From: Thermomonas sp.
GTDB taxonomy: Bacteria; Pseudomonadota; Gammaproteobacteria; Xanthomonadales; Xanthomonadaceae
DNA: 64,000 bases
NCBI RefSeq assembly: GCF_029945965.1
Contig: NZ_JAQSDO010000012.1
Span: 161,263 to 225,262, forward strand
Reading direction: 5' to 3'
In this document: piece by piece, positions 12,985 through 31,908 of the stretch
Layout of the letters: each line of letters begins with the position of its first letter
How positions within the stretch are numbered: position 1 is the stretch's first letter
The notes under the pieces: model-generated
Seen by the model: the letters and a program-made list of their open reading frames with translations, nothing else
What the model was told of the DNA's origin: nothing
Databases searched by the model: none
Program-made: the position numbers and the translations under genes

Positions 12985-15675
12985 TCACACCCCAATCGGA
13001 TTCGGCTTCTCCGCATCGATCTTGTACAGCTTGATCGCGCGGGCCACGTCTTTGGCGGTCATCTTGCCGTCGGCGGCCAGCGCGGCTACGGCGGCGTGGG
13101 CGACGTAGTAGCGGTCGACCTCGAAGAAACGGCGCAGGTTGGCACGGGTGTCGCTGCGGCCGAAGCCATCGGTGCCCAATACGCTGTAGCGCATCGGCAC
13201 GTATTCGCGGATCTGGTTGGCGTGGTGGCGCACGTAGTCGGTGGCTGCAATCGCAGGACCCTGGCGGCCTTCCAGCAGCGCGGTTACCCAAGGCTTGCGC
13301 GGGGTCTTGGCTTCGGGGTGGAACCTGTTCCAGCGTTCGGCATCCACGCCATCGCGGGACAGCTCGACGAAGCTCGGGCAGGACCACAAATCCGACTTGA
13401 TGCCGAAGTCGGCATCCAGCAGGTCGGCAGCGGCAATTACTTCGCGCAGGATCGTGCCGCTGCCCAACAGTTGCACGCGCAGTTCGCCCTTCTTCGGCTT
13501 GCCACCGTCCTTGAGCAGATACATGCCCTTGATGATGCCCTCGGCGCTGCCTTCCGGCATCTCCGGGTGGGTGTAATTTTCATTCATCAGCGTGATGTAG
13601 AAATACTCGTCGCGCTGTTCGGCCAGCATCCGCTGCATGCCGTATTGCACGATGGTCACGACTTCGTATGCGAAGGTGGGATCAAAGCTGCGCACGTTGG
13701 GGATGAAACTGGCCTGCACCTGCGACTGCCCGTCTTCGTGCTGCAAGCCTTCGCCATTGAGCGTGGTGCGGCCGGCGGTGGCACCGAGCATGAAGCCGCG
13801 CGCGCGCATGTCGCCTGCCTGCCAGGCGGAGTCGCCGACGCGCTGGAAACCGAACATCGAGTAGTAGATATAGAACGGCAGCATCGCCAGGTCATTGGTG
13901 CTGTAGCTGGTCGCCAGCGCCAGCCATGACGAGAACGCACCGGCTTCGGTGATGCCTTCCTCCAGCACCTGCCCGGCCGCGTCTTCACGGTAGAACATCA
14001 GCTGGTCGGCATCCACTGGCTTGTACTTCTGGCCCTGCGGCGCATAGATGCCCAACTGGCGGAACATGCCTTCCATGCCGAAGGTGCGCGCCTCATCAGC
14101 AACAATCGGCACGCAGCGCGGGCCGATCGTCTTGTCGCGCAGGATGATGTTCAACATCTGCACGAATGCCATGGTGGTGCTGTTCTCACGCTCGCCGCTG
14201 GACTTGAGCAGGCGCTCGAACGTCGCAAGCGGCGGCACTTCGAGTTGCTGCGTGGCCTTGCGCCGGCGCTGCGGCAAATAGCCGCCGAGCTGTGCGCGGC
14301 GTTCACGCATGTATTCGAGTTCGGGCGACTTTTCGTCCGGGCGGAAGAACGGCACGGCGCCGTCCTTGAACTGGTCGTCGTCGATTTCCAGCTTGAAGCG
14401 GTCGCGGAATGCGCGCACCGCGGCATCGTCCAGCTTCTTGGTCTGGTGGGTCGGGTTGAGCGCCTCACCCGCCGCGCCCATGCCATAACCCTTGACCGTC
14501 TTGGCCAGGATCACGGTGGGCAAGCCCTCGGTTTTCACCGCCGCGTCGTACGCTGCATACACCTTGTGCGGGTCATGGCCACCACGGTTCAGGCGCCAGA
14601 TGTCGTCGTCGCTGAGGTTGGCGACCATGGCCAGGGCTTCGGGGTGTTTGCCGAAGAAATGTTCACGGGTATACGCGCCACCGAACGCCTTGCAGTTCTG
14701 GTACTCGCCGTCGACGGTATCCATCATGATTTTTTTCAGGACGCCATGCGTGTCCTTGGCCAGCAACGGATCCCAGTAGCTGCCCCAGATCGTCTTGATC
14801 ACGTTCCAGCCGTGGCCCCGGAACGCGGCTTCCAACTCCTGGATGATCTTGCCGTTACCGCGCACCGGGCCATCCAGGCGCTGCAGGTTGCAGTTGACGA
14901 CGAAAATCAGATTATCGAGACCTTCGCGGCCGGCCACGCCAATCGCGCCAAGGCTTTCCGGCTCGTCGGTCTCACCGTCGCCGAGAAAGCACCACACCTT
15001 GCGGTCAGTCTTCGGCATCAGCCCGCGCGCTTCCAGGTACTTCCAGCTGCGCGCCTGGTAGATCGCGGCCAGCGGGCCAAGGCCCATGCTGACGGTCGGG
15101 GTCTGCCAGAAGTCCGGCATCAGCCACGGGTGCGGATAGCTGCTGATGCCGCGACCATCGACTTCCATGCGGAAGTTGTCGAGCTGGGATTCGCTGATGC
15201 GGCCTTCCATGAACGCACGTGCGTAGATGCCCGGTGAACTGTGGCCCTGCAGGTACAGCAAATCACCCGGGTGATCCGCGCTGGGTGCGCGCCAGAAGTG
15301 ATTGAAGCCGACGTCGTACAGCGTTGCCGACGAGGCGAAGCTGGCGATGTGGCCGCCCAGGTCGCCCGGCTTGCGGTTGGCACGCACCACCATCGCCATC
15401 GCATTCCAGCGGATCATCGAACGGATCCGCCATTCCAGGTGTGCATCGCCCGGCAGCTTCGGCTCCAGGTGACTGGGAATGGTGTTGATGTATTCGGTGG
15501 TGGGCGCGAATGGCAGGTTGGCGCCGGCGCGGCGGGTCAGTTCGACCATGCCTTCCAGAAGCTGGTGCGCGCGATCCGCGCCGTCATGATCGATGACCGC
15601 CTTGATCGATTCGATCCACTCCCGCGACTCGGTCGGATCTGGATCGTTCTGCAGTATCTCGTTGAGCCAATTCAT
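12985..15675 (-). CDS. aceE: Pyruvate dehydrogenase E1 component, homodimeric
   Basis: Decarboxylates pyruvate with thiamine diphosphate and reductively acetylates the lipoyl groups of E2, linking glycolysis to the TCA cycle. The 896-residue length and start (MNWLNEILQNDPDPTESREWIES) match the single-chain E1 of gammaproteobacteria. The cofactor motif reads FLGDGETDEPESLG, continuing to the usual Asn in VVNCN. Family blocks such as GHSSPGIYARAFMEGR and SWLALATSYS are intact. The start has GGAG upstream. E2 and E3 genes are not adjacent, unlike the E. coli ace operon, and no PdhR-type regulator is present. Confidence 0.98.
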   Translation of the reverse strand: MNWLNEILQNDPDPTESREWIESIKAVIDHDGADRAHQLLEGMVELTRRAGANLPFAPTTEYINTIPSHLEPKLPGDAHLEWRIRSMIRWNAMAMVVRANRKPGDLGGHIASFASSATLYDVGFNHFWRAPSADHPGDLLYLQGHSSPGIYARAFMEGRISESQLDNFRMEVDGRGISSYPHPWLMPDFWQTPTVSMGLGPLAAIYQARSWKYLEARGLMPKTDRKVWCFLGDGETDEPESLGAIGVAGREGLDNLIFVVNCNLQRLDGPVRGNGKIIQELEAAFRGHGWNVIKTIWGSYWDPLLAKDTHGVLKKIMMDTVDGEYQNCKAFGGAYTREHFFGKHPEALAMVANLSDDDIWRLNRGGHDPHKVYAAYDAAVKTEGLPTVILAKTVKGYGMGAAGEALNPTHQTKKLDDAAVRAFRDRFKLEIDDDQFKDGAVPFFRPDEKSPELEYMRERRAQLGGYLPQRRRKATQQLEVPPLATFERLLKSSGERENSTTMAFVQMLNIILRDKTIGPRCVPIVADEARTFGMEGMFRQLGIYAPQGQKYKPVDADQLMFYREDAAGQVLEEGITEAGAFSSWLALATSYSTNDLAMLPFYIYYSMFGFQRVGDSAWQAGDMRARGFMLGATAGRTTLNGEGLQHEDGQSQVQASFIPNVRSFDPTFAYEVVTIVQYGMQRMLAEQRDEYFYITLMNENYTHPEMPEGSAEGIIKGMYLLKDGGKPKKGELRVQLLGSGTILREVIAAADLLDADFGIKSDLWSCPSFVELSRDGVDAERWNRFHPEAKTPRKPWVTALLEGRQGPAIAATDYVRHHANQIREYVPMRYSVLGTDGFGRSDTRANLRRFFEVDRYYVAHAAVAALAADGKMTAKDVARAIKLYKIDAEKPNPIGV

Positions 15676-15866
15676 GTGCGCTCCGGGTCAGGCGGGGATC
15701 GTCAGGACCCTGAGTCTAGCAAGCGTCCGGCCAGTTTCCATGGCGCGCTGCGGGGTAAATGAGTTTTTACCCGTATGTAATTATTCAACTGCAACGACAG
15801 TCCAGCTCCCCGACAGATCAGAAATCCCTGCAAGCCTATGACAACCGGTTTCATGAATCATGTTGC

Positions 15867-15888
15867 GTCTACTAATTATTTAGTACTA
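15867..15888. promoter_or_regulatory. BlaI-type operator upstream of blaI
   Basis: The core is a perfect inverted repeat, TACTAA-N4-TTAGTA (15870-15885), flanked by GTC and CTA. The same 22-bp arrangement, inverted, precedes the S41 peptidase gene. A possible -35 (TTGCGT, 15863-15868) and -10 (TAAGAT, 15887-15892) straddle it, so a bound repressor would block polymerase. Assignment to the repressor encoded next door is inferred from position and symmetry. Confidence 0.8.
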
Positions 15889-15921
15889 AGATAGCCGTAC
15901 ATCCTCTTCCTGCCGAGACGC

Positions 15922-16308
15922 ATGCCCACTCCCAATCCCACCGAAGGCGAACTGGCGATCCTGCGCGTGCTGTGGCCGCGCAAGACAGCCATGACCGTGC
16001 GCGAAGTGCACGCCGAGTTATCGAAGCACAAGGACACCGCCTACACCACAGTGCTGAAGATGTTGACGATCATGGCCGACAAGGGCCTGCTCCGCCGCGA
16101 TGAATCCGAGCGCAGCCACACCTACCTGGCCGTGGACGCAGAGCCCGTCGTGCAGCGTTCGTTGGTGAAGGACCTGGTTCGGCGGGCGTTCTCGGGGTCG
16201 GCGATGACATTGGTGCAGCGTGCGCTCGACGACGACACAGCCAGCCTCGAAGAGCTCGACCAGATCTCGAAGCTCATCGCCCAAGCCAAGGCGAAGCGGA
16301 AACGCTGA
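15922..16308 (+). CDS. BlaI/MecI/CopY-family repressor
   Basis: A 128-residue winged-helix repressor of the BlaI/MecI family, which binds palindromic operators as a dimer and is destroyed when a partner M56 metalloprotease is activated. The N-terminal helix-turn-helix region is clear (EGELAILRVLWPRKTAMTVREVHAEL, then TAYTTVLKMLTIMADKGLLRR), followed by a C-terminal dimerisation helix. Its stop codon overlaps the ATG of the M56 gene by one base (TGATG), showing a coupled pair. Two copies of one near-palindrome, before this gene and before the S41 peptidase gene, are the expected binding sites. Confidence 0.93.
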   Translation: MPTPNPTEGELAILRVLWPRKTAMTVREVHAELSKHKDTAYTTVLKMLTIMADKGLLRRDESERSHTYLAVDAEPVVQRSLVKDLVRRAFSGSAMTLVQRALDDDTASLEELDQISKLIAQAKAKRKR

Positions 16309-17867
16309 TGGACGTGGTCGCGCTGCTGCCTTGGCGACTCGCGCCCGCGCTGGTGACGGCCCTGCTGCATTCGCTGTGGCAGGACACGCTGCTGGCGCTC
16401 ATTGCGGTGATTGCGCTGGACGCATTGTCGCAACGCGACGCCGCAACGCGACATAGCGTAGCGATGGGCGTGTTGACCGCCATGGTGTTGGTGCCCTTCG
16501 CCACGTTCCTGCGCTTACTGCATGCACCTGCGGCTGCACAGGCAACTGGCTGGTTACCCGCACTGACGCCGCCGGAACTGGATGCCGCCACCGGGCAATT
16601 CGTGCAGCAATCCGACTTGGTACCGGCCGTGCTCGCGCTGCTGTGGTTGTGCGGCGTCGGCGTAATGCTGCTACGGCGCTTCGCCGGCTGGCGGCTGGTG
16701 GCCAACCTGGATCGCCATAATTTCTCCTGCTTGCCACAGGACTGGCAGCAGCGCTTCGAGGTTTTGCGCGATGCGATGGGTATCACCCGGCGCGTTGCGG
16801 TGCGGCTGTCGCACGAACTCGTTGGTCCCTTCACCGCGCGCCTGCTGTGGCCGGTGATCTGGTTGCCGCTGTCGCTGCTGACACAGCTGCCGCGTGAGCA
16901 GTTGGAAGCGCTGCTGGCTCATGAGCTGGCGCATATCGCACGCCTGGACTGGCTCTGGAATGGCCTGCAATGCGTGATGGAATCGCTGTTGTTCTTCCAC
17001 CCCGCAGCGTGGTGGCTGGGTCGGCGTATCCGGCAGGAACGCGAGCACGCTTGCGACGATCGGGCGGTGGCAGTTTGTGGGGACGCCATCGCACTCGCCG
17101 AAGCCCTCGAGCAACTCGAGCGGCAACGGCATATTCCCCCACAACTTGTACTTGCAGCCCAAGGAGGCTCACTCATGAAACGCATCACCCGATTGTTGGC
17201 GGCACCACCTGCGCGTGCGCGCTGGGGTGCGGCCATCGGCACCGGCGCACTGGTGGTCTCAGGCGTGTTGCTGGTCACCCAGCTCGGGCTGGCCAAACAG
17301 GGACGCCAGGGCATCCACATCAGCACCACCACCGACGGAGTGCTTGGCCCGGGCGACACCCGCGAGATCTCCGCATACGCCAAGGACGGTTGGCGTCACT
17401 ACACCGTGTCAGTAGGCAAGGACGGCAAGGTGACCGAGACCCTCGAGGTCGAAGGCAAGCCGACGCCCGTGACTGCGGATACACAGCGCTGGATCGCCGA
17501 GACCCTGCGCTTGAACATGCCGCCGCCGCCTCCGCCTCCGCCGCCCGCACCGCCACCGTCCCTGGGCGCACTGCCGATGCCGCCCCCGCCGCCGGACATC
17601 CATGATCTGGCGATGTTCAAGATCCTCATGCAACGCGTCGTCGCTGATCAAAGCGTGATGGCGAAGTTGGGCAGCCCTGCCGTGCTTGCGTCGAAAGACG
17701 TGAAAGGCAGTATCGAAATCGGCAACGGTGCGCGGCCCGATGGCGATGCGAATGTCACGTTCAAGCTCCGCGGCCCGAAAGGCCAGGCCGATGTGCACGT
17801 GAATGCGCAGCTGACCGAAGGCGAGTGGTCGATGGATCGCGTGGACTTCGAAAGTGCCGTGCGCTGA
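16308..17867 (+). CDS. BlaR1/MecR1-like M56 metallopeptidase without a penicillin-binding sensor
   Basis: A 519-residue membrane protease, the sensor-effector partner of the BlaI-type repressor. The N-terminal half has four hydrophobic segments and the zinc motif HELAH at 205-209, with the further acidic ligand probably in REHACDDRA. A last membrane segment (about residues 305-325) leads to an extracytoplasmic tail. That tail lacks the serine penicillin-sensor domain of true BlaR1. Instead it has a proline-rich hinge (about 405-430, with a run of nine prolines) between two small beta-rich parts of unknown function. The inducing signal is therefore probably not a beta-lactam. Confidence 0.88.
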   Translation: MDVVALLPWRLAPALVTALLHSLWQDTLLALIAVIALDALSQRDAATRHSVAMGVLTAMVLVPFATFLRLLHAPAAAQATGWLPALTPPELDAATGQFVQQSDLVPAVLALLWLCGVGVMLLRRFAGWRLVANLDRHNFSCLPQDWQQRFEVLRDAMGITRRVAVRLSHELVGPFTARLLWPVIWLPLSLLTQLPREQLEALLAHELAHIARLDWLWNGLQCVMESLLFFHPAAWWLGRRIRQEREHACDDRAVAVCGDAIALAEALEQLERQRHIPPQLVLAAQGGSLMKRITRLLAAPPARARWGAAIGTGALVVSGVLLVTQLGLAKQGRQGIHISTTTDGVLGPGDTREISAYAKDGWRHYTVSVGKDGKVTETLEVEGKPTPVTADTQRWIAETLRLNMPPPPPPPPPAPPPSLGALPMPPPPPDIHDLAMFKILMQRVVADQSVMAKLGSPAVLASKDVKGSIEIGNGARPDGDANVTFKLRGPKGQADVHVNAQLTEGEWSMDRVDFESAVR

Positions 17868-17881
17868 GTTTTTTTGAGTTC

Positions 17882-17903
17882 TAGTACTAACTCTTTAGTA
17901 GAC
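17882..17903. promoter_or_regulatory. BlaI-type operator upstream of the S41 peptidase
   Basis: The core TACTAA-N4-TTAGTA (17885-17900) is flanked by TAG and GAC. Read on the minus strand it matches the blaI operator at every fixed position, including the flanks. It lies 47 bp before the chosen start codon of the peptidase gene. Confidence 0.8.
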
Positions 17904-17950
17904 ATCCACAGTGAGCCAACCGCGGCGCTGCCGCTTCAAAAGGAATGCCC

Positions 17951-19036
17951 ATGTTCAAGCGCTACCTGCTTACCCTCGCCCTCACCCTGTGCGTGACGCC
18001 CGCGTTCGCCCAGCATGATCCCAAACCCGTTCCGGTCGACGCCACCACGCGCAAGGCGGTGATTGCCGAGTTGTCCTCGCAACTCAACACCAACTACGTA
18101 TTTCCCGATGTCGCTGCGCAACTGGCCACCGCGCTTGCCGCCAAGGAAAACAGCGGCGGTTACTCGCAGGCGACGGACAGCAGCACCTTCGCCGATGCGT
18201 TGACGAAAGACCTGCGCATGCTCGGCAAGGATGACCATTTCGCCGTCGGCTACGACCCTGATTTTCGCGCTTCGCCGCCCGATGCGGTGCCTGATGCCGA
18301 GACGTTGCAGGTCATGCGCCGGGAAATTTCCAGCCACGGCTTCGGCATCGATAGCGTCAAACGCCTGCCCGGCAACGTCGGCTACCTGGAACTGCGAGCG
18401 TTCGGCCCCACGCAGATAGTCGCAGCGGCGATCTCGGGTGCGATGACGATGCTTTCGGGCACCGATGCGCTGATCCTGGACCTGCGCCGCAACGGCGGTG
18501 GCGAGCCCGAAACCGTGGCCTACCTGATGAGCCACTTCTTCTCAGCCGGCGATGAGCGCCATCTCAACGACCTGTACTTCCGGGTCGGAGACACCACCCA
18601 CCAGTACTGGACAAGCGCCGCGGTTGGCCCGCGCTACACCCGCCCGGTGTATGTGCTGACATCGGGACGCACGTTCTCCGGTGGCGAAGAGTGCGCGTAT
18701 GACTTCCAGACCCAGAAGCGCGCCAAGATCGTCGGCGAAACAACTGGTGGTGGCGCCAATCCCGGCGACGGCTACGCCATCAGCAAGGGCTACGCCGCGT
18801 TCATCCCGAATGGTCGCGCCATCAACCCGATCACCAAGACCAATTGGGAGCACGTTGGCGTCATCCCGGACATTGCAGTGCCAGCTGCCGATGCACAGAA
18901 AGTCGCGCATGCGGCAATCCTGCGCGATCTCATTGCCGCGGCGAAGGACCCGGATGAGAAGAATCAGCTGCAGGACATCCTCAAGGACGTCGAAGCAGGC
19001 GTGGTTGCGGTGCCGGTGTATACAAAGCGCCAATGA
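17951..19036 (+). CDS. Exported S41-family (tail-specific/IRBP-like) peptidase
   Basis: A 361-residue periplasmic protein with signal peptide MFKRYLLTLALTLCVTPAFA. An ATG six bases earlier (17945) directly abuts AAAGGA and leaves no spacer, so the ATG at 17951, with six bases of spacing, is preferred. Residues about 30-100 resemble the three-helix N-terminal domain of retinol-binding-protein-like S41 members. The rest is the S41 domain, with the nucleophile expected at Ser243 in TSGRTFSGGEE and conserved blocks DALILDLRRNGGG and GETTGGGANPG. No PDZ domain is evident. The shared operator makes it a predicted target of the BlaI/M56 pair. Confidence 0.88.
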   Translation: MFKRYLLTLALTLCVTPAFAQHDPKPVPVDATTRKAVIAELSSQLNTNYVFPDVAAQLATALAAKENSGGYSQATDSSTFADALTKDLRMLGKDDHFAVGYDPDFRASPPDAVPDAETLQVMRREISSHGFGIDSVKRLPGNVGYLELRAFGPTQIVAAAISGAMTMLSGTDALILDLRRNGGGEPETVAYLMSHFFSAGDERHLNDLYFRVGDTTHQYWTSAAVGPRYTRPVYVLTSGRTFSGGEECAYDFQTQKRAKIVGETTGGGANPGDGYAISKGYAAFIPNGRAINPITKTNWEHVGVIPDIAVPAADAQKVAHAAILRDLIAAAKDPDEKNQLQDILKDVEAGVVAVPVYTKRQ

Positions 19037-19046
19037 GGTGACAACC

Positions 19047-19074
19047 CGCCACCGGGCTTGAAAATCCGGTGGCG
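19047..19074. terminator. Convergent stem-loop between S41 peptidase and bufC genes
   Basis: CGCCACCGG and CCGGTGGCG form a perfect nine-base stem around a ten-base loop. It sits between two convergent genes and could end both transcripts. No long T-run is present on either side. Confidence 0.6.
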
Positions 19075-19079
19075 TCGCG

Positions 19080-19886
19080 TCAAGCCTCTGGACGCGTGTT
19101 CCATGCTGCAATCAATCCCGCAGCGCACCAGTCCTGCAGGTAGCCGAGCACGCGCGCTGGCACGCCTTCGACGGGATGGGTGATCGCCATCAGTTCGCAC
19201 AGTTCGGCGAAGCTGCCGCTGTGCCGGCAGCAATCGAATGCGGCTGAGCTGTCGTGCTCCAACGAACGGAAGCGGCCGACACCGTCTTCATCGCGCCACA
19301 GCACCCAATCGACGGCGTCTTCGATGCCTGCATATGCAGGCGGATCCTGATCGGCCTTGATCGCCTGCCAGATCGCCACGCTTCCATGTCGCGCACGATG
19401 CACGCGCACGCTGCGATGCAAGCGCACACGCATTGCAGGCCACTGTTCGGGCGGTATCACCTGCAGTTGTGTCCAGTTGGCGCGCGGATCATCGGCGGCA
19501 TCGAAACTGTCCAGCAGCAGGCGTTCGAAGCGGGCCAACTCGGCCAGTTGCGGATGCCTGCGGAACTGTTCGGTTTCGGCAAGGAATGCTGGCAGCGCAT
19601 TGCCGAAGTCGCGCAGCGAGCGCACGCGCGATGGATGTGCATTGATATAGCCCTTGCACAGCGCTTCCCAGAGCTCGTCACCCAGGTATGCCCCGAGAAC
19701 AGGGTGATCGTTCTCGAGTGCTTCGCGCAGGCGCGCGCCGTAGGCATTCGCGTAGATGCGTAGCCCGGTTGCTGCAGGCAGGCGACCGACATCGACCGCC
19801 TGTTCCAGGTCTTTATCCGTATTGCCGCGCAAGTGCGCGATGAACTGGCGTTGCAACTGCGCCAGGTCGAGGTCGATGACGCTCAT
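19080..19886 (-). CDS. bufC: BufC-type MNIO partner protein (DUF2063), second bufferin system
   Basis: A 268-residue protein of the HvfC/BufC family (DUF2063), which binds the precursor and works with the MNIO enzyme BufB. The ATG at 19884-19886 overlaps the bufB stop by four bases (ATGA), fixing the start and indicating coupling. The N-terminal helical part carries the family pattern LRIYANAYGARLREALENDHPVLGAYLGDELWEAL followed by HPSRVRSLRDFGNALPAFLA. The C-terminal half is less conserved. Last gene of the bufA2-bufB-bufC set. The original annotation of the family as putative DNA-binding is not supported by the context. Confidence 0.9.
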   Translation of the reverse strand: MSVIDLDLAQLQRQFIAHLRGNTDKDLEQAVDVGRLPAATGLRIYANAYGARLREALENDHPVLGAYLGDELWEALCKGYINAHPSRVRSLRDFGNALPAFLAETEQFRRHPQLAELARFERLLLDSFDAADDPRANWTQLQVIPPEQWPAMRVRLHRSVRVHRARHGSVAIWQAIKADQDPPAYAGIEDAVDWVLWRDEDGVGRFRSLEHDSSAAFDCCRHSGSFAELCELMAITHPVEGVPARVLGYLQDWCAAGLIAAWNTRPEA

Positions 19887-20797
19887 GTGGCGTGGGCAAC
19901 ACTGGCACGCGCGAAAGTGACGCGGGCCTGGTCGAGTTCGCCGAGCAATTCCTGCAGCGGCGGAAAATGATCGTCGCGCTCGATCATGGTGCTGATCGGG
20001 CCGAACTTGCGGATCGCGCGTTCGTACAGCGCCCAGACTTCGCTTGGCACGTCGTGATCGTGGGTGTCGATGCAGTAGTCGCCATAGTCGCTGTGCCCAG
20101 CCAGATGGATCTGCCAGACCCGATCGGCGGGAATGCCATCGAGGTAGGTATTCGGGTCGAAACCCTGGTTGCGCGCACTGACCTGGATGTTGTTGACGTC
20201 CAGCAGGATGCGGCTGCCAGCGCGACGCGCGACTTCGGCGACGAAGTCCCATTCGGGCATCCGTGACTGGCGGAATTCGACATAGCTGCTGAGGTTTTCC
20301 AGCAGGATTTCGCGACCAAGGAACTCCTGCACCTGCTGCACGCGCGAGACCACATGCGCGATCGCGGCTTCGTCATAAGGCAAGGGCAACAGGTCGTGGC
20401 TGTTGATGCCGTCCACGCCAGTCCAGCACAGGTGATCGGAAACCCACGCCGGCTGGATCTCGCGCGCAAGCTCACGCAGCCCGCGCAGGTAATCCATGTC
20501 CAGCGGATCGGTGCTGCCGATCGACAGCGACACGCCATGCATCACTACCGGCCAGCGTTCGCGGATGCGATGCAGGTAGTGGCGTGGCTTGCCGCCGGCC
20601 ACCATGAAATTTTCCGAAGTGACTTCGAACCAATCAACATTCGGAGCGTTCGCCAACACCTCATCGAAATACTGGGTGCGCAAACCAAGCCCGAAACCCA
20701 ACCAAGGCCTCACCTTCGGCGCATGCTCGCAGGAGGTGGGCCCGGCGGACGGTCCCTGTGCAGTCTTGGGGGAGAGCAGGCCGTATTGCATGTGCAT
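19883..20797 (-). CDS. bufB: BufB-type MNIO enzyme (DUF692), second bufferin system
   Basis: A 304-residue member of the DUF692 family, multinuclear non-haem iron oxidative enzymes that modify cysteines in ribosomally made precursors. The TIM-barrel ligand residues lie in visible blocks: FEVTSENFM, VMHGVSLSIG, WVSDHLCW, LLENLSSYV, LDVNNIQVSARNQGFDP, IHLAGH, DTHDHDVP and MIERDDHFPP. A 30-residue N-terminal extension precedes the usual LGFGLGLR start, so a later start is possible. It follows the bufA2 precursor by 19 bp and overlaps bufC. Its presumed substrate is the duplicated cysteine-rich precursor immediately upstream. Confidence 0.93.
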   Translation of the reverse strand: MHMQYGLLSPKTAQGPSAGPTSCEHAPKVRPWLGFGLGLRTQYFDEVLANAPNVDWFEVTSENFMVAGGKPRHYLHRIRERWPVVMHGVSLSIGSTDPLDMDYLRGLRELAREIQPAWVSDHLCWTGVDGINSHDLLPLPYDEAAIAHVVSRVQQVQEFLGREILLENLSSYVEFRQSRMPEWDFVAEVARRAGSRILLDVNNIQVSARNQGFDPNTYLDGIPADRVWQIHLAGHSDYGDYCIDTHDHDVPSEVWALYERAIRKFGPISTMIERDDHFPPLQELLGELDQARVTFARASVAHAT

Positions 20798-20816
20798 GCG
20801 TGCCAGCGAACCAGGA

Positions 20817-21314
20817 TCAACCCGCGCTGGTGCTGCCGCCGATGTTGCTGCAGCTAGCCGCCGGCAACATCACGAAGCCCTGGCCCTTGCAGCTGCCCTG
20901 GCCCTTGCAGGCGTTGTTGGCAGTGTGGCAATCGTTGTGACCTTTGCACTGGTTGATCCCGAAGCACTGGATCTGGCTGGATGCGGCAACCTTCATGCTG
21001 CTACCGGCATCGATCACCTTGCCGCCGACATCGCCACACGCGGCTGCGGTGGCGCCCACGAAACCCTGGCCCTTGCAGCTGCCCTGGCCCTTGCAGGCAT
21101 TGGCGGCGGTCTTGCAATCGTTGTGGCCCTTGCATTGGTTCACGCCGGAACAATGCACCAGCGCAACTTGATCGACCGCTGCCTTGGCCATTGACTTGTC
21201 CTTGCCGCCAGCAGCATTGGCGGGCGTGCTCAGCGCAAGGCCAGCCGCAAGCATGGCAAGGGTAGCGCCGGTCAGTGCAGTGGAGCTCTGCGCAGCAATG
21301 GTATGAGCGTTCAT
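20817..21314 (-). CDS. bufA2: BufA2-type bufferin precursor with duplicated cysteine core
   Basis: A 165-residue exported RiPP-like metallophore precursor. The ATG at 21312-21314 has GAGGAAA upstream and opens a signal peptide that probably ends at ANAA (about 33-35). The mature part holds twelve cysteines in two blocks of six: 55, 61, 67, 74, 80, 93 and 117, 123, 129, 136, 142, 155. Spacing is identical in both (5-5-6-5-12 intervening residues). Motifs such as CKGHNDC and [15 protein letters not shown] occur in each. Family knowledge: bufferins are modified by BufB/BufC and buffer copper in the periplasm. Ordinary family members appear to have one block, so this looks like a tandem duplication. 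Confidence 0.9.
20850..21152 (-). repeat. Tandem duplication inside the bufA2 precursor
   Basis: Two 117-bp blocks (21036-21152 and 20850-20966) lie 186 bp apart and encode 39-residue cysteine cores sharing 31 of 39 residues. Nucleotide similarity is also high over the [11 protein letters not shown] part, which suggests a fairly recent or conversion-maintained duplication. Confidence 0.9.
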
Positions 21315-21439
21315 GGGATTTCCTCGAGTGGGATAGGCAGCCGGGCAGTCCGGATGCGGGAACGGCGTGAAGCAAGCGCGGTTGATGCGGGTTGATGCGG
21401 CATGCCGGCGATGGATCATGCCGCGCCTGCTTTGTGTTG

Positions 21440-21465
21440 TACGTGCGGTTGCGGAAAATAGTTAC
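21440..21465 (-). promoter_or_regulatory. Putative ECF promoter of bufA2 operon
   Basis: On the minus strand GTAACTATT (21457-21465) is followed after GTAAC-proximal spacing by CGTA (21440-21443), with 17 bases between GTAAC-containing motif start region TAACTATT's GTAAC end and CGTA. The same GTAACTATT precedes bufA1 with CGAA. The layout resembles GTAAC/CG ECF promoters such as those read by Caulobacter SigF. The leader to the start codon is about 125 bases. Confidence 0.7.
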
Positions 21466-21503
21466 AGTTGGACCGAAAAATTTTGTTGCGGTATCCCGGG
21501 GCG

Positions 21504-22184
21504 TCAGACCCGGCGCGAATATCCGATCCACGCGAACATCCGGCGCGAGAACAACAGGCTCAGAAGCGAAAGCAGCAGCACCGCGCCGACATGCCAGAGC
21601 AACACCATCAGAGACGACTCACCACCGTGATGGATCAGGCTGACTGCGCTGGACGACAACGTCGCGGCACTGAGCATTACCAGCAATGCGGTCGAACCGG
21701 GCCGCACCACACCGGCATGGCGAACCATCAACAGCAACACCAGTCCCAGCGGGATACTGGTCATGGTGATCGCGCGAAAGCATTCCATCGGACCTTCGTG
21801 GAAGGTGAGTGCGGCGCTGCCCTCGCGCGCAAACTCGTGCATGCACCCCAATCCCAAACCGGCGATCCACAACACCGCTGCAGGCACCGGCAGCCATGCC
21901 CAGCGCGGGCTACGCCCGGGCACGCTGACCTGGAACACCGCATAGCTGGCAAGCACGCCGGTCAGCAGGCTCAACGACCATTCGACGGTGGCATCCGGCG
22001 AGGCCATCACCCGCGTCCAACCGGCACCCACGTCGAAGTTGGAAACAATGATGGCTACTACCAGCAACGCCAATGCCAGCCATGCCAGTGTGCGAAAAAG
22101 TGGCGAGGACATCCGTCGCACCGGCAATGCACGGGCGGAGAGTTGGTCGATCAATCGATCGGTATCAGTATTCATGTCAGTCAT
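21504..22184 (-). CDS. NrsF-type membrane anti-sigma factor (DUF1109)
   Basis: A 226-residue inner-membrane protein with six hydrophobic segments after a short charged N-terminal tail, the layout of DUF1109/NrsF anti-sigma factors. Two cysteines stand out, Cys114 (GLGCMHE) and Cys135 (PMECFRA); NrsF proteins carry conserved cysteines needed to respond to heavy metals. Its start overlaps the sigma-factor gene by eight bases, the usual arrangement for a sigma/anti-sigma pair. It probably holds the ECF factor at the membrane until metal stress. It lies between the sigma gene and the second bufferin set. Confidence 0.88.
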   Translation of the reverse strand: MTDMNTDTDRLIDQLSARALPVRRMSSPLFRTLAWLALALLVVAIIVSNFDVGAGWTRVMASPDATVEWSLSLLTGVLASYAVFQVSVPGRSPRWAWLPVPAAVLWIAGLGLGCMHEFAREGSAALTFHEGPMECFRAITMTSIPLGLVLLLMVRHAGVVRPGSTALLVMLSAATLSSSAVSLIHHGGESSLMVLLWHVGAVLLLSLLSLLFSRRMFAWIGYSRRV

Positions 22185-22842
22185 GGGATGGATCCTTTCC
22201 GGTCAGCGCGCGCTGCAGCGAGCCGATGGCGCGGTGGCAGGCGACTTTCAGCGAGCCAACGGTTTGCCTGCTTTGTTCAGAGGCTTCATTGAGCGAGAGT
22301 TCCTGCAGGCGCAGCATCGAAATCGCATCGCGCTGGCGTGTGGGCAATTCGTCGACCGCGCTGCGCACGCGGCGTGCTTGGTGTTCGCGTGCAAGGGTTT
22401 CCTCGGGACCTGGACCGCCATGCGCGTGGTAGTCGACATCGACTACATCGGCCATTTCATGCTGCGCGCGATGCGCGCGGCGACGCAGCAGGTCGATGCA
22501 GCGGCGCGAGGCAATCGTGCCCAGCCAGGGCTTGAACGGGCGGCCGCGCTCGAAGGTGTGGCGGATGCCATGCACCACCATCAAGACCTCCTGCACCGCG
22601 TCTTCCGCATCCTCGCCGTGGCCCAGGTAGCGGCGTGCGATGGCCCGCACATAGGGCGCGATGGATTGCAGCAGGATGCGGTACGCGTCCTTGTCGCCGT
22701 CCTGCGCACTCAGCATCAGCGCCGCCCAGCGCGCATCATCCGCGGCGCGATCAGTGGCGGCAGGCGCTTGCTGCTGTGCGGGTTGAGCCATGCTGGTCGC
22801 GGAAACCGCGTTCCTCGTGAACGGTAGGATGACGGCCATCAT
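22177..22842 (-). CDS. ECF RNA polymerase sigma factor linked to bufferin genes
   Basis: A 221-residue ECF sigma factor. Region 2 is about residues 45-115 (DAYRILLQSIAPYVRAIARRYLG, then EDAEDAVQEVLMVVH and FKPWLGTIASRRCIDLLRRR) and region 4 about 160-212 (VDELPTRQRDAISMLRLQELSLNEAS). The start is uncertain: two ATGs stand in tandem with no strong ribosome-binding site, three bases after the doxX stop. It matches the SigF-type factors of Caulobacter, which with NrsF control DUF2282–DUF692–DUF2063 genes. Both bufferin promoters here carry a common GTAAC motif, its probable target, and the bufA1 one would make it autoregulatory. Confidence 0.92.
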   Translation of the reverse strand: MMAVILPFTRNAVSATSMAQPAQQQAPAATDRAADDARWAALMLSAQDGDKDAYRILLQSIAPYVRAIARRYLGHGEDAEDAVQEVLMVVHGIRHTFERGRPFKPWLGTIASRRCIDLLRRRAHRAQHEMADVVDVDYHAHGGPGPEETLAREHQARRVRSAVDELPTRQRDAISMLRLQELSLNEASEQSRQTVGSLKVACHRAIGSLQRALTGKDPSHD

Positions 22843-22845
22843 GGA

Positions 22846-23388
22846 TCAGCGGGTGGCGGCTGCCAAACCCGAGCGCTTAGCGCCTGCCGCGCCGCGTATG
22901 GCAATCAGTCGGTCGATCGAGATCCGGCCCGGCCCGCGCGCCATCAGGTACAGCATCAACGCGGCCCACAAACCATGCGTGGGCCATGCGGCCGGATACA
23001 CGAAGATCTCGATCACAAGGGTCATGCCCAGCAACGCGCCCGCCGACAGACGCGTACCAAGCCCGATCAGTAGCAGCAGCGGGAACACGTGTTCAGCAGT
23101 GGCGGACATCAGTGCAGCCACATCCGGCGGCAGCAACGGCAAAGCATATTCGCTGCGGAACAATTCGACCGCGCCATCGCTCAGGTGTGGCAAACCAAAC
23201 TGCGCCTTCAGGCCGATCGGATCCAGCACGAAGCCATCGATCTTGGTCTGTCCGGACAGCCAGAACGTGGCCGCGATCGAGATCCGTGCCAGCAACTGGA
23301 TCAGGTCTTCAGGGATGCGGCGGCAAGCATCGATGTAGGCGCTGATCACGCGCGTCGGCAGGGTTCGGGGGATCGCGGAATCATGCAT
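22846..23388 (-). CDS. DoxX-family membrane protein of the bufferin operon
   Basis: A 180-residue protein with four hydrophobic segments of the DoxX/TQO small-subunit family. The ATG at 23386-23388 overlaps the bufC stop by eight bases and has GAGGA upstream; a TTG eight codons earlier is a weaker choice. The family pattern appears as RISIAATFWLSGQTKIDGF, AEHVFPLLLLIGLGTRLSAGALLGM and YPAAWPTHGLWAALMLYLMARGPG. DoxX proteins are frequent in bufferin operons and may serve as redox or quinone-linked partners; the exact job is not known. It lies between bufC and the sigma-factor gene. Confidence 0.88.
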   Translation of the reverse strand: MHDSAIPRTLPTRVISAYIDACRRIPEDLIQLLARISIAATFWLSGQTKIDGFVLDPIGLKAQFGLPHLSDGAVELFRSEYALPLLPPDVAALMSATAEHVFPLLLLIGLGTRLSAGALLGMTLVIEIFVYPAAWPTHGLWAALMLYLMARGPGRISIDRLIAIRGAAGAKRSGLAAATR

Positions 23389-24181
23389 GTTGGTCGTCCT
23401 CGTCGGGTTCAATGGCCGCTACCAGCCCGTGCTGCAGCAGGAGTGCGAACAATTGGTCTGGTGATGCTTCTGGAGATATCGCGCACGCGCGCTGCAGCGC
23501 TTCGCCAAGCGTTGCGCCGGTATGCAGTGCGTCCAACCAGTCGATGCCGCCCGCAGGCAGTGCAACCTGCTGCACATCCCACTGCGGTCGATGCACCAGT
23601 ACGTCTTCACCGATGCCGAGATCTAACGCAGCCAACATCGCGTCACGCTGTGCATCGGCATGCTGGTGTGTCTGCCAGATCGACAGCACCGGATGCGCGG
23701 ACGACAGCCAGCGGCAGGCCGGTTCCAAAAGCACCCGTGTCGACGCCAAGCGCGCTGGATCGACCAACAGCGCGTTCCATTGCCCGCTGTCGAGCGTATC
23801 GGCATCGGCGGCATGGAAGGCTTCGCTGCGCAGGCGTTCCAGCCGCGCGATATCAGACAGGTACGCAACGCCTGCAACAGGCAGATGACATGCGATGAAA
23901 TCGGCGAAGCCGGCGCCATACGCGGACATCACTGGCGAACGCGGCGGATCGATGCGCACGTAGTCGCGTGCCATCGCAGCGAAGAAATCCCCACCTACCA
24001 ATTCGCGGGTGACCGGGAAGGCCGCAGCCAGCGCATCGACCAGCGCCATCATCATATTGTTGCGATGCACGCCAAAACGACCCGCCGCGTCGCCTGCACC
24101 GTTGCGCAGGCCTGCGGGTATCTGCGCCGGTTCCAAAAGTGCGGATGCGAATGCGTCATGCATATTGGATGCGCTATTCAT
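23381..24181 (-). CDS. bufC: BufC-type MNIO partner protein (DUF2063), first bufferin system
   Basis: A 266-residue DUF2063 protein, partner of the MNIO enzyme encoded upstream. Its ATG overlaps the bufB stop (ATGA), and its own stop overlaps doxX. Family markers are FGVHRNNMMMALVDALAAAFPVTRELVGGDFF and ARDYVRIDPPRSPVMSAYGAGFADF, the same blocks as in the second BufC copy though the two are clearly diverged. Members bind precursor peptide and are needed with BufB for modification. The two BufC copies within 5 kb probably serve different precursors. Confidence 0.9.
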   Translation of the reverse strand: MNSASNMHDAFASALLEPAQIPAGLRNGAGDAAGRFGVHRNNMMMALVDALAAAFPVTRELVGGDFFAAMARDYVRIDPPRSPVMSAYGAGFADFIACHLPVAGVAYLSDIARLERLRSEAFHAADADTLDSGQWNALLVDPARLASTRVLLEPACRWLSSAHPVLSIWQTHQHADAQRDAMLAALDLGIGEDVLVHRPQWDVQQVALPAGGIDWLDALHTGATLGEALQRACAISPEASPDQLFALLLQHGLVAAIEPDEDDQHA

Positions 24182-25071
24182 GCCGCCGCGCCCAGCCGCA
24201 TGCGCGCCGCATCCAACAGAAAATCCGAGTGACGCACCTCGTCGCGCAGCACGCCATATGCGGGGACGTCGTTATCCCACTCGATCAGCGTCGCGACCGG
24301 GCCGGTGCGGACCAGCACATCGGCATACAAGCGCCACACCGCATCCGCGACGGGTGCGCCGTGGTCGTCGATCAGCAGCGCGCCGGCATCGTCGCTTGCA
24401 TGGCCGGCCAGATGGATTTCACCGACCGCATGCAACGGCAGCGCCGCGAGATAGGCATGCGGATCTCGCCCCAGGTTGTGGCAGGACACGAATACATTGT
24501 TCACGTCCAGCAGCAACCCGCAGCCGGTGCGCCTAACAAGGGCCGCGATGAAATCGGTTTCGTCGATGTCGCTGGCGTCAAACGTGAGGTAGCTCGACGG
24601 GTTTTCCAGCAACATGCGCAGGCCCAACCGCGACTGCACCTGGTCAATGTGTTCACAGACGCGGTCCAGGCTGTCCGCATCGTAGGCGAGCGGCAGCAAG
24701 TCGCTGTAGAAACGACCGTCGTGCGTCGACCACGCCAGGTGCTCGGAAAAACTCGCGGGTTGATAGCGTTCGATCAAACGGGACAATCGATCAAGGTGCT
24801 TGGAGTCCGGCGCGCTGGCGCCACCAAGCGACAGGCCCACGCCATGCAGCGATAACGGTCGTTCGGAGCGCATGCGCGACAGCCACGCGTGCGGTGCACC
24901 GCCATCGCCCATGTAGTTTTCGGCGTGGACTTCGAAAAATGCAGGCGGGTTGGCGTCGGCCAACCAGTCCTGCAGGTGTTGCGACTTGAAACCGGCGCCG
25001 GCCTGCGCAGGCAGGCCGGCATCGGAACGGATCACAGCAGGCGATGACGCGACCGGGGAGAAGACAGTCAT
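24178..25071 (-). CDS. bufB: BufB-type MNIO enzyme (DUF692), first bufferin system
   Basis: A 297-residue multinuclear iron oxidative enzyme (DUF692). The ATG at 25069-25071 is chosen because upstream sequence overlaps bufA1 and looks unrelated; its ribosome-binding site is weak, so coupling to bufA1, ending 23 bp earlier, may help. Ligand-bearing blocks are present: FEVHAENYMG, LHGVGLSLGG, FSEHLAWS, LLENPSSYL, LLDVNNVFVSCHNLGRDP, IHLAGH, IDDHGAPV and LIEWDNDVP. The enzyme is expected to oxidise cysteines of BufA1 to metal-binding heterocycles in the cytoplasm before export. Confidence 0.93.
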   Translation of the reverse strand: MTVFSPVASSPAVIRSDAGLPAQAGAGFKSQHLQDWLADANPPAFFEVHAENYMGDGGAPHAWLSRMRSERPLSLHGVGLSLGGASAPDSKHLDRLSRLIERYQPASFSEHLAWSTHDGRFYSDLLPLAYDADSLDRVCEHIDQVQSRLGLRMLLENPSSYLTFDASDIDETDFIAALVRRTGCGLLLDVNNVFVSCHNLGRDPHAYLAALPLHAVGEIHLAGHASDDAGALLIDDHGAPVADAVWRLYADVLVRTGPVATLIEWDNDVPAYGVLRDEVRHSDFLLDAARMRLGAAA

Positions 25072-25094
25072 CGCGGCAGGTCCGAGGGGGCTGC

Positions 25095-25421
25095 TCAGCC
25101 GGCCTTGCGTGGCTTGGGCGCGAACGCCGCCAGCTGGCCGAAGCCGGTCGGCGAAGTCTTGGATGCAGTCTTCAGGCAGGTGCCATCCGGCACGGACTTC
25201 CAGGCGTTGGCCTGATGGTCGGCTTTGGACGTGCCCGCGCAGGTAGTGCCGGCACCAGCGGCGCAATCGTTCTTGCCAGCGAGGGCTACACCGAAGCATT
25301 TTTCCGGCGAGGCCTTGGCCTGTTCGCCGGCATGCGCGGGCGCGGAGGTCATCGCCAGGGCAGAACCCAGTGCAGCGGCAAGCGCAGCAGCGGGCAACAT
25401 CGAACGAGTGAAATGGGACAT
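25095..25421 (-). CDS. bufA1: BufA1-type bufferin precursor (DUF2282)
   Basis: A 108-residue exported precursor of the DUF2282 family. The ATG at 25419-25421 has GGAG seven bases upstream and gives a signal peptide ending APAHA (about residue 31). The mature part has four cysteines (42, 53, 61, 82) in the family pattern: [22 protein letters not shown] and then a later single Cys. Family knowledge: BufA1 peptides are cysteine-modified by BufB/BufC and bind copper in the periplasm. The C-terminal tail is basic and proline-rich. First gene of a six-gene operon that includes its own ECF sigma and anti-sigma factors. Confidence 0.93.
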
Positions 25422-25480
25422 CAGTGGCTCCGGTAACGAGTGGATGGGCACAGGCGCGTTGTGCGCCGGTACCCCATCAA

Positions 25481-25505
25481 TTCGCGTGGGAAGCCGAATA
25501 GTTAC
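25481..25505 (-). promoter_or_regulatory. Putative ECF promoter of bufA1 operon
   Basis: Minus-strand GTAACTATT (25497-25505) and CGAA (25481-25484) repeat the layout seen upstream of bufA2, where the second motif is CGTA. The start codon lies about 60 bases downstream. Two bases upstream of the motif lies a palindromic repeat element. Confidence 0.7.
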
Positions 25506-25507
25506 GT

Positions 25508-25591
25508 CGAAAAGGGGTCAGAGAACATTTCCATTCGAATAGTGAAGGGATCTGCAGCCATATCTTGGAAATGTTCTCTGACCCCTTTTCG
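25508..25591. repeat. REPIN/MITE-like palindromic element, copy A
   Basis: An 84-bp element with perfect 26-bp inverted arms (25508-25533 and 25566-25591), each beginning CGAAAAGGGGTCAGAGAAC from the outside. It fills the gap between the malic enzyme gene and the bufA1 promoter. Its arm core GGGGTCAGAG is shared with three other elements in the window. Confidence 0.9.
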
Positions 25592-25619
25592 TTTTCGAAC
25601 CGGCATTGCTTGCCAGGCG

Positions 25620-27917
<2,298 letters not shown>

Positions 27918-31825: not shown

Positions 31826-31908
31826 CGAAATGGGGTCAGAGAACTTTTCCCCAGAAGCATCCGCCTCACTCAATTTGTGGAATGGAAATGTTCTCTGACC
31901 CCATTTCG
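31826..31908. repeat. REPIN/MITE-like palindromic element, copy C
   Basis: Outer arms 31826-31844 and 31890-31908 are a perfect 19-bp inverted repeat (CGAAATGGGGTCAGAGAAC); similarity extends six more bases with one mismatch. It begins two bases past alaA, and its right arm is read as the first codons of the SGNH hydrolase. Confidence 0.9.

Follow-up and report, generated by a model that had tools for sequence, protein, structure and literature searches.

One putative SigF-NrsF switch for two linked bufferin systems in a Thermomonas genome

We analysed a 64,000-nucleotide stretch of Thermomonas sp. DNA (the window; RefSeq assembly GCF_029945965.1, contig NZ_JAQSDO010000012.1, positions 161,263 to 225,262), in which nine consecutive minus-strand genes, running from 25421 to 19080, encode two bufferin systems together with an extracytoplasmic function (ECF) sigma factor and an NrsF-type anti-sigma factor. 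An earlier, sequence-only reading of this DNA had proposed that both systems share a single sigma/anti-sigma switch. This proposal is now strongly supported: a sigma-F-type promoter motif lies upstream of both precursor genes and, in relatives, the motif upstream of bufA2 occurs together with nrsF. The combination of one predicted switch with two bufferins recurs across several gene orders and is well supported. We consider it probable that the locus is a self-contained periplasmic copper/thiol-metal stress cassette, in which one SigF-NrsF switch would drive both bufferins.

Two bufferin systems and two candidate promoters

The gene order is bufA1-bufB1-bufC1-doxX-sigF-nrsF, followed after a 189-bp gap by bufA2-bufB2-bufC2. 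Pfam and NCBIfam matches bore out the families and order given in the sequence-only reading, and its counts of four and twelve cysteines for the two precursors proved exact. The first half begins with bufA1 (25095..25421), which encodes a Buf1/DUF2282 precursor (E 2e-22) with 4 Cys and a predicted Sec-type signal peptide, judged by eye only. It is followed by bufB1 (24178..25071), encoding an MNIO maturase that scores 365 bits against MNIO_BufB (family cut-off 310 bits), bufC1 (23381..24181), encoding a DUF2063 partner protein, and the gene of a DoxX family membrane protein (22846..23388). The SigF-like ECF sigma factor encoded by sigF (22177..22842; Sigma70_r2, r4_2) is paired with the NrsF/DUF1109 protein encoded by nrsF (21504..22184; NrsF E 2.5e-25), as in ECF16 SigF-NrsF switches. 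The second half consists of bufA2 (20817..21314), encoding a Buf2 precursor of two six-Cys repeats (12 Cys) that matches NF050166 over two stretches with 140 bits (cut-off 60), bufB2 (19883..20797; MNIO_BufB 381 bits) and bufC2 (19080..19886; DUF2063). The locus therefore holds both a Buf1-type cluster (four-Cys DUF2282 precursor, MNIO and DUF2063 genes) and a Buf2-type cluster (12-Cys BufA2 precursor, MNIO and DUF2063 genes), and its two bufB genes are the only MNIO genes in the host genome (3.24 Mb, 20 contigs). Intergenic gaps range from -8 to +23 bp in each half; the bufA1-bufB1 gap measures 23 bp if the bufB1 ATG is placed at 25071.

A motif scan yielded two sites of the sigma-F type, both on the minus strand. 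P1 (sigma-F/ECF16-type, 25481..25505; GTAACT-N15-CGAA) lies 59 nt upstream of bufA1, and P2 (21440..21465; GTAACT-N16-CGTA) lies within the 189-bp nrsF-bufA2 gap, where it would give bufA2 a leader of 125 nt. The published SigF motif is GTAACC-N16-CGAA (PMC3511200) and the ECF16 consensus is (T/C)GTAAC-N17-CGAA (PMC8315932). Both window sites follow the ECF16 target-promoter form GTAAC-N16/17-CGAA with one or two deviations each, and recognition by SigF is predicted for both. In the 400 bp upstream of sigF no motif of its own was found (top score 7/10), so that sigF, together with nrsF, seems to depend on P1. Positive feedback by a sigma factor gene placed inside the first operon, as proposed earlier, is consistent with a sigF that lies behind P1 and lacks its own motif; as nrsF belongs to that unit too, however, the anti-sigma factor would likewise be amplified. 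Given P2 and the 189-bp gap, we rejected a single operon as the sole reading. The "stacked" systems described previously are indeed adjacent, but they look like two putative transcription units rather than one stack.

A consensus scan for promoters and terminators remained near noise (3 found against 1.4 expected, and 7 against 5.0), and Rfam gave no match within 15600-26000. A perfect 26-bp inverted repeat (25508-25533 and 25566-25591, with a 32-nt loop) ends about 2 bp before the -35 element of P1 and has relatives in the window at about 30417 and at 31828-31906; it appears to belong to a REP-type (repetitive extragenic palindromic) repeat family.

Association of the motif with nrsF in relatives

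The bufA2 loci of relatives (designated by G and L numbers) were sorted according to whether nrsF lay near (within about 6 kb), occurred only elsewhere in the genome, or was absent, an NrsF being counted when it was over the Pfam cut-off. The named set comprised the best 80 of 251 confirmed relatives, and the order and family samples comprised 200 and 198 genomes from larger groups. Loci whose BufA2 fell below the family cut-off were excluded (G019, G067, G079, G105, G115, G164, G204, G251, G296), while G150, just below it, was kept in the nrsF-less group. The NrsF search covered 48 of the 80 named genomes; in the other 32 (L152-L181, L103, L108) the motif was found upstream of bufA2 in none.

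Where nrsF was near, the motif was present upstream of bufA2 at all 16 loci (G000, G091, G135, G100, G194, G074, G095, G140, G159, G212, G287, G298, G307, G319, G341, L105), in its exact form at G140 and G194. Where nrsF was absent, it was present in 0 of 61 genomes, namely 45 of the 48 named genomes searched, 8 order and 8 family genomes, with recognised duplicates removed; one of the 45, L107, has a weak, sub-cut-off NrsF match with stops. Fisher's test on 16/16 against 0/61 gives 7e-17, a value which, as the genomes are related, is not a true probability. Between these extremes, loci with nrsF only elsewhere carried the motif in 3 of 15 cases (G356, L104 and one G174 copy). Within the named set, the motif loci L102, L104 and L105 belong to exactly the three of 48 genomes that have an NrsF over the cut-off. 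In the loci examined the motif turns up at a background rate of about 1% per 375 bp, true sites included, and chance occurrence was rejected on this ground. The exact GTAACC-N16-CGAA pattern was counted in six whole genomes: in G212 (4.0 Mb) it occurs three times, upstream of sigF, bufA1 and bufA2; in G024 and G160 once each, upstream of bufA1; in G135 five times, with sigF or bufferin precursors accounting for four; and in G091 and G136, taken up below, three times and once.

Among relatives the genes appear in varying order while the predicted wiring persists. The window's arrangement of nine genes is also found in the same-family relative Chiayiivirga flava (G091). Genus g49 and G212 have sigF-nrsF pointing away from a bufA1-B1-C1-doxX-bufA2-B2-C2 series (bufB1 was not detected in G194), and other arrangements are seen in G319, G287, G341, G307 and G298. 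In the metagenome Gammaproteobacterium L105 the order is bufA2-B2-C2-doxX-sigF-nrsF, and the stretch examined contains no bufA1. In the L104 genome, bufA2-B2-C2 is unlinked yet carries the motif, with bufA1-B1-C1-doxX-sigF-nrsF on another contig. Linkage is rare among loci of the 12-Cys type: sigF and nrsF adjoin only 2 of the 80 named ones (the best 80 of 251, with some stretches cut by contig ends).

This distribution bears on the possibility that the two halves are independently regulated, P2 being read by another sigma factor or bufA2 being constitutive, with adjacency as a by-product of transfer. The CGTA element and the 125-nt leader of P2 are in keeping with it, as are the extra motif-less bufA2 loci in genomes with sigma-F/NrsF (G100b, G194b, G174b, G135 contig 14, G159 contig 2). 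Yet the division between nrsF-linked loci and nrsF-less genomes, and the motif retained in L104 on a different contig from nrsF, make independent regulation highly unlikely in our view.

Variant sensor residues of NrsF

In Caulobacter NrsF, the predicted periplasmic residues C131 and C181 matter for keeping the regulon at its basal level (PMC3511200). When the window NrsF was aligned with 36 others, the first cysteine was found to be kept (C135), the second column to hold His185, and C114 and H198 to be added. The window protein thus lacks the canonical pair of cysteines (C131, C181), but is nonetheless a Pfam NrsF protein; the match of these columns to Caulobacter rests on the conserved Cys pattern of the family, the alignment being without the Caulobacter sequence. 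All four residues C114, C135, H185 and H198 are present in 19 of 19 NrsF proteins of the window's type, whereas each of the other 18 (17 distinct) has Cys in both the 135 and the 185 column and Leu or Val at 114, with Tyr at 198 in 16. Since the other 18 proteins of the window's type share 52-60% identity with the window protein, the pattern is to be read as the inheritance of one lineage and not as many independent events. The count omitted L040, L041 and the type of NrsF found in family f12 (L047-L062), where 6 of 16 were readable in the orientation used. These six (L047, L050, L053, L054, L058, L062) combine C114 and C135 with one more Cys close to the third loop, a third form.

An AlphaFold2 model of the window NrsF, built from a 3-row alignment with one row lacking the N-terminus, gave a mean predicted local distance difference test score of 60 and a predicted template modelling score of 0.51, too weak to judge the proximity of C114, C135, H185 and H198. 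We put forward only tentatively, as something we would sooner doubt than assume, that in this lineage the thiol pair has become a Cys2His2-like set through which NrsF would sense periplasmic metal directly, tie the release of the sigma factor to the binding of Cu(I) and drive both bufferin types from one compact, transferable cassette. The natural residue swap makes what ECF16 anti-sigma factors sense accessible to residue exchange.

Maturase classes and precursor cysteines

In Cys-Lys (Buf2) MNIOs, the Phe at the 250 site of FonB is replaced by Asp, while the site is not conserved in DUF2282 MNIOs (PMC13097082). Alignment to 3BWW (ERDF) gave ERDD for the window BufB2, which thus has the Asp of the Buf2/Cys-Lys type, and EWDN for BufB1. 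Asp was found at this selectivity site in 93 of 117 Buf2-linked rows (12 Ala, 10 Gly, 2 unreadable) against 0 of 20 Buf1-linked rows; at least eight of all these rows each stem from a genome reached twice. The earlier suggestion that each precursor has its own enzyme thus gains support, the predicted match resting on the selectivity residue. Tandem duplication of one bufferin system was considered and rejected: BufB1 and BufB2 are only 41% identical and each is of its own class.

In Buf1, modification falls on the two central cysteines, and a disulphide joins the outer pair (PMC12452194). Applied to BufA2, this analogy would give each repeat two outer and four inner cysteines, so that BufA2 would offer up to eight modifiable cysteines against two in BufA1. 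The 12-Cys Buf2 is a described minority form, 90% of Buf2 having 6 Cys and the remainder 12 (PMC12452194).

Could the two bufferins instead buffer different metals or redox states, the division of labour that had been suggested for this locus? Their cysteine architectures differ (4 against two times 6) and their maturases have diverged, BufC1 and BufC2 being 26% identical over 140 residues, in addition to the divergence of the BufB pair. But both families are described as copper bufferins (PMC12452194), both precursors are apparently under the same switch here, and nothing in the sequence assigns a second metal. We consider such a division unlikely. A difference in capacity would be at least as likely on the cysteine analogy, and it is the simpler reading.

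Proposed mechanism and its alternatives

The genes, the promoter motifs, their association with nrsF, the enzyme class match, the insertion site and the sensor residue change are all read from sequence; the signal, the recognition of the promoters by the sigma factor, modification, export, copper binding and the capacity role are inferred, and the proposed course is as follows. In the resting cell, SigF would be held at the membrane by NrsF. A periplasmic metal, most likely Cu(I), or a related oxidant signal would act on NrsF and free SigF, which would then transcribe from the two near-identical promoters. P1 would yield bufferin-1, BufB1/C1, DoxX and more SigF and NrsF, a positive feedback that would be self-limiting, and P2 would yield the double-domain bufferin-2 with BufB2/C2. 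Each MNIO-DUF2063 pair would modify its own precursor, and both peptides would be exported by Sec and buffer metal in the periplasm. The second bufferin would mainly represent extra capacity, given its up to eight candidate modifiable cysteines against two. The regulon may also include a cytochrome b/molybdopterin oxidoreductase pair and, with less certainty, MsrB/MsrA, which would serve in the repair of oxidised proteins in the periplasm.

The last step draws on sites elsewhere in the host genome. The relaxed pattern GTAACY-N15/16-CGWA occurs at 21 sites in the whole genome. Apart from the two at the bufferin precursors, one lies 35 bp upstream of a cytochrome b561 gene that is followed by a molybdopterin oxidoreductase gene (contig 15, 969151), and another lies at msrB, with msrA next (contig 19, 83991). 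Caulobacter SigF controls MsrPQ as well (PMC8224329), which the cytochrome b/molybdopterin oxidoreductase site appears to echo.

The cassette could be seen as primarily a defence against oxidants (HOCl or reactive oxygen species), with bufferins and Msr-type proteins working jointly and with something other than metal as the natural inducer. The motif at the molybdopterin oxidoreductase pair, and possibly at msrBA, agrees with this, and so does the presence of Msr genes in ECF16 regulons of several species (PMC8315932). However, the Caulobacter SigF regulon is copper-induced and disruption of sigF renders cells copper-sensitive (PMC8224329), while genes of that regulon are not induced by agents that generate reactive oxygen species (PMC3511200). 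A primarily oxidant-directed role thus seems to us somewhat unlikely. That the bufferin-2 half is redundant cargo, retained by chance after the cassette was assembled, would agree with six genomes that have the first six genes and no BufA2 match (the congener G160 and the relatives G136, G024, G227, G231 and G292), but its intact reading frames, class-specific enzyme site and own predicted promoter, and a Buf1-Buf2-nrsF linkage that recurs in several gene orders, render this very improbable.

Several observations weigh against a single copper-responsive switch for both halves. The motif is missing at 12 of the 15 bufA2 loci with NrsF only elsewhere in the genome (two G174 copies; second copies of G100, G194, G135 and G159; two of G085; G046, G060, G179 and G189). 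Of the three exact GTAACC-N16-CGAA sites in Chiayiivirga (G091) only one is at a bufferin gene (bufA2), and the single such site in G136 is not; this pattern does not cover the bufA1 sites of the two genomes, in which the spacing is N15. In the window itself, P1 and P2 each depart from the consensus in one or two features: both read GTAACT, P1 has N15 spacing and P2 has CGTA. No clear terminator was found in the 189-bp nrsF-bufA2 gap, so that read-through from P1 may express the second half too. The 21 genome-wide sites are of comparable quality, and almost all of them coincide with an open frame of 150 codons or more on one or other strand, although in GC-rich DNA such overlap is weak evidence that the sites are intragenic. 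The msrB site falls within the msrB frame when this is taken at its longest, ATG codons flank it on either side, and as it may not be a promoter we count it as doubtful. Copper as the signal is borrowed from other species, and PMC6180224 describes orthologous Sinorhizobium promoters as unresponsive to H2O2, Cd and chromate.

Comparison with known systems

A bufferin cluster under ECF16 control is a known kind of system, of which the present combination and its sensor residues are a variant. One close parallel is Caulobacter crescentus, in which one sigma-F serves two bufferin operons and matters for copper tolerance (PMC3511200, PMC8224329). Its SigF-NrsF regulon (CC3254-3257, CC2907-2905, MsrPQ) shares with the window the ECF sigma/DUF1109 anti-sigma pair, and has GTAACC-N16-CGAA promoters at two bufferin-type operons and Msr genes in the regulon (PMC3511200, PMC8224329). 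Its two operons, however, are unlinked, with DUF2282 given as the family of both precursors (PMC3511200), whereas the window links a Buf1 to a 12-Cys Buf2; in our Caulobacter control genome PF10048 was matched and NF050166 was not. Furthermore, sigF has its own promoter there while the window sigF lacks a motif of its own, and the C181 position of a protein described with both C131 and C181 is His in the window. The shared switch proposed here extends what is known from Caulobacter, in that it takes in a Buf2 family member, and a linked one.

In Cupriavidus metallidurans, the gigPABT-rpoQ-rsqA locus likewise places a four-gene operon (4-Cys periplasmic peptide, DUF2063, DoxX-like) beside an ECF sigma/anti-sigma pair. 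The gig operon is induced by copper and gold, dependence on RpoQ not being demonstrated in the text available; it is divergent from the sigma gene, and that text mentions no second bufferin (PMC10304878). The RpoE7-EcfR7/SMb20530-20527 system of Sinorhizobium meliloti resembles the window in that an ECF16 pair controls a DUF692/DUF2063 operon through GTAAC-type promoters, but it has a single divergent operon and both NrsF cysteines are said to be conserved (PMC6180224). The 2025 MNIO survey describes Buf1 and Buf2 clusters with the same precursor-MNIO-DUF2063 cores and reports sigma/NrsF genes in Buf1 and not in Buf2 clusters (PMC12452194), while here and in relatives they also accompany Buf2. 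In searches of an open-access library we recognised no description of a combined Buf1-Buf2 sigma-F locus. The locus points to sigma-F regulons that can include Buf2-type bufferins, unseen in the published genetic survey, and to a link found in several gene orders; its compactness allows two bufferins, their cognate enzymes and the switch to be tested together.

Genomic site and further loci

The nine genes lie in a block between aceE and maeB (15676..25619), delimited by comparison with congeners, which also holds genes for a BlaI-type repressor, an M56 (BlaR1-like) peptidase and an S41 peptidase (15922-19036) on the strand opposite to the bufferin genes. While about 9.9 kb separate maeB and aceE in the window, aceE lies behind maeB with no such block between them in seven of eight congener regions. 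The distance is about 0.1-0.3 kb in six of these and about 2.3 kb in the remaining one (G422), and in the eighth region (G426) no aceE turned up within the stretch examined. Conservation of the stretch preceding aceE is recognisable by eye. The bufferin locus of G160 lies about 150 kb from its own maeB on one contig, and of those flanking genes of the window that were looked for, none was found in two Chiayiivirga stretches beside its bufferin locus. The comparison fits acquisition of the bufferin block at the maeB-aceE site.

In the BufB1 tree the window groups with Chiayiivirga (support 0.976), apart from the congener G160. In the BufB2 tree it is closer to Lysobacter prati and G302, whose bufA2 genes are without the motif (the wider group has a support of 0.76-0.78), and the NrsF tree, in which some fragments were included, did not place the window. 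The BufB1 and BufB2 trees disagree on whether the nine genes moved together, and transfer as one unit is a possibility.

Some further loci depart from these arrangements. L215 and L218-L224 (same family, seven of them in genus g83) have sigF-nrsF with its own GTAAC-type promoter and no bufferin gene in 10-11 kb. At the second loci of L070, L072, L097 and L098, bufA1-doxX stands beside bufA2-B2-C2, with no separate bufB1/C1 and no sigma-F motif found there; a single MNIO may serve two precursors in these cases. Among plasmid records, BufA2 relatives were found on 18 (7 of Pseudomonas) and NrsF relatives on 68 (51 of Burkholderia).

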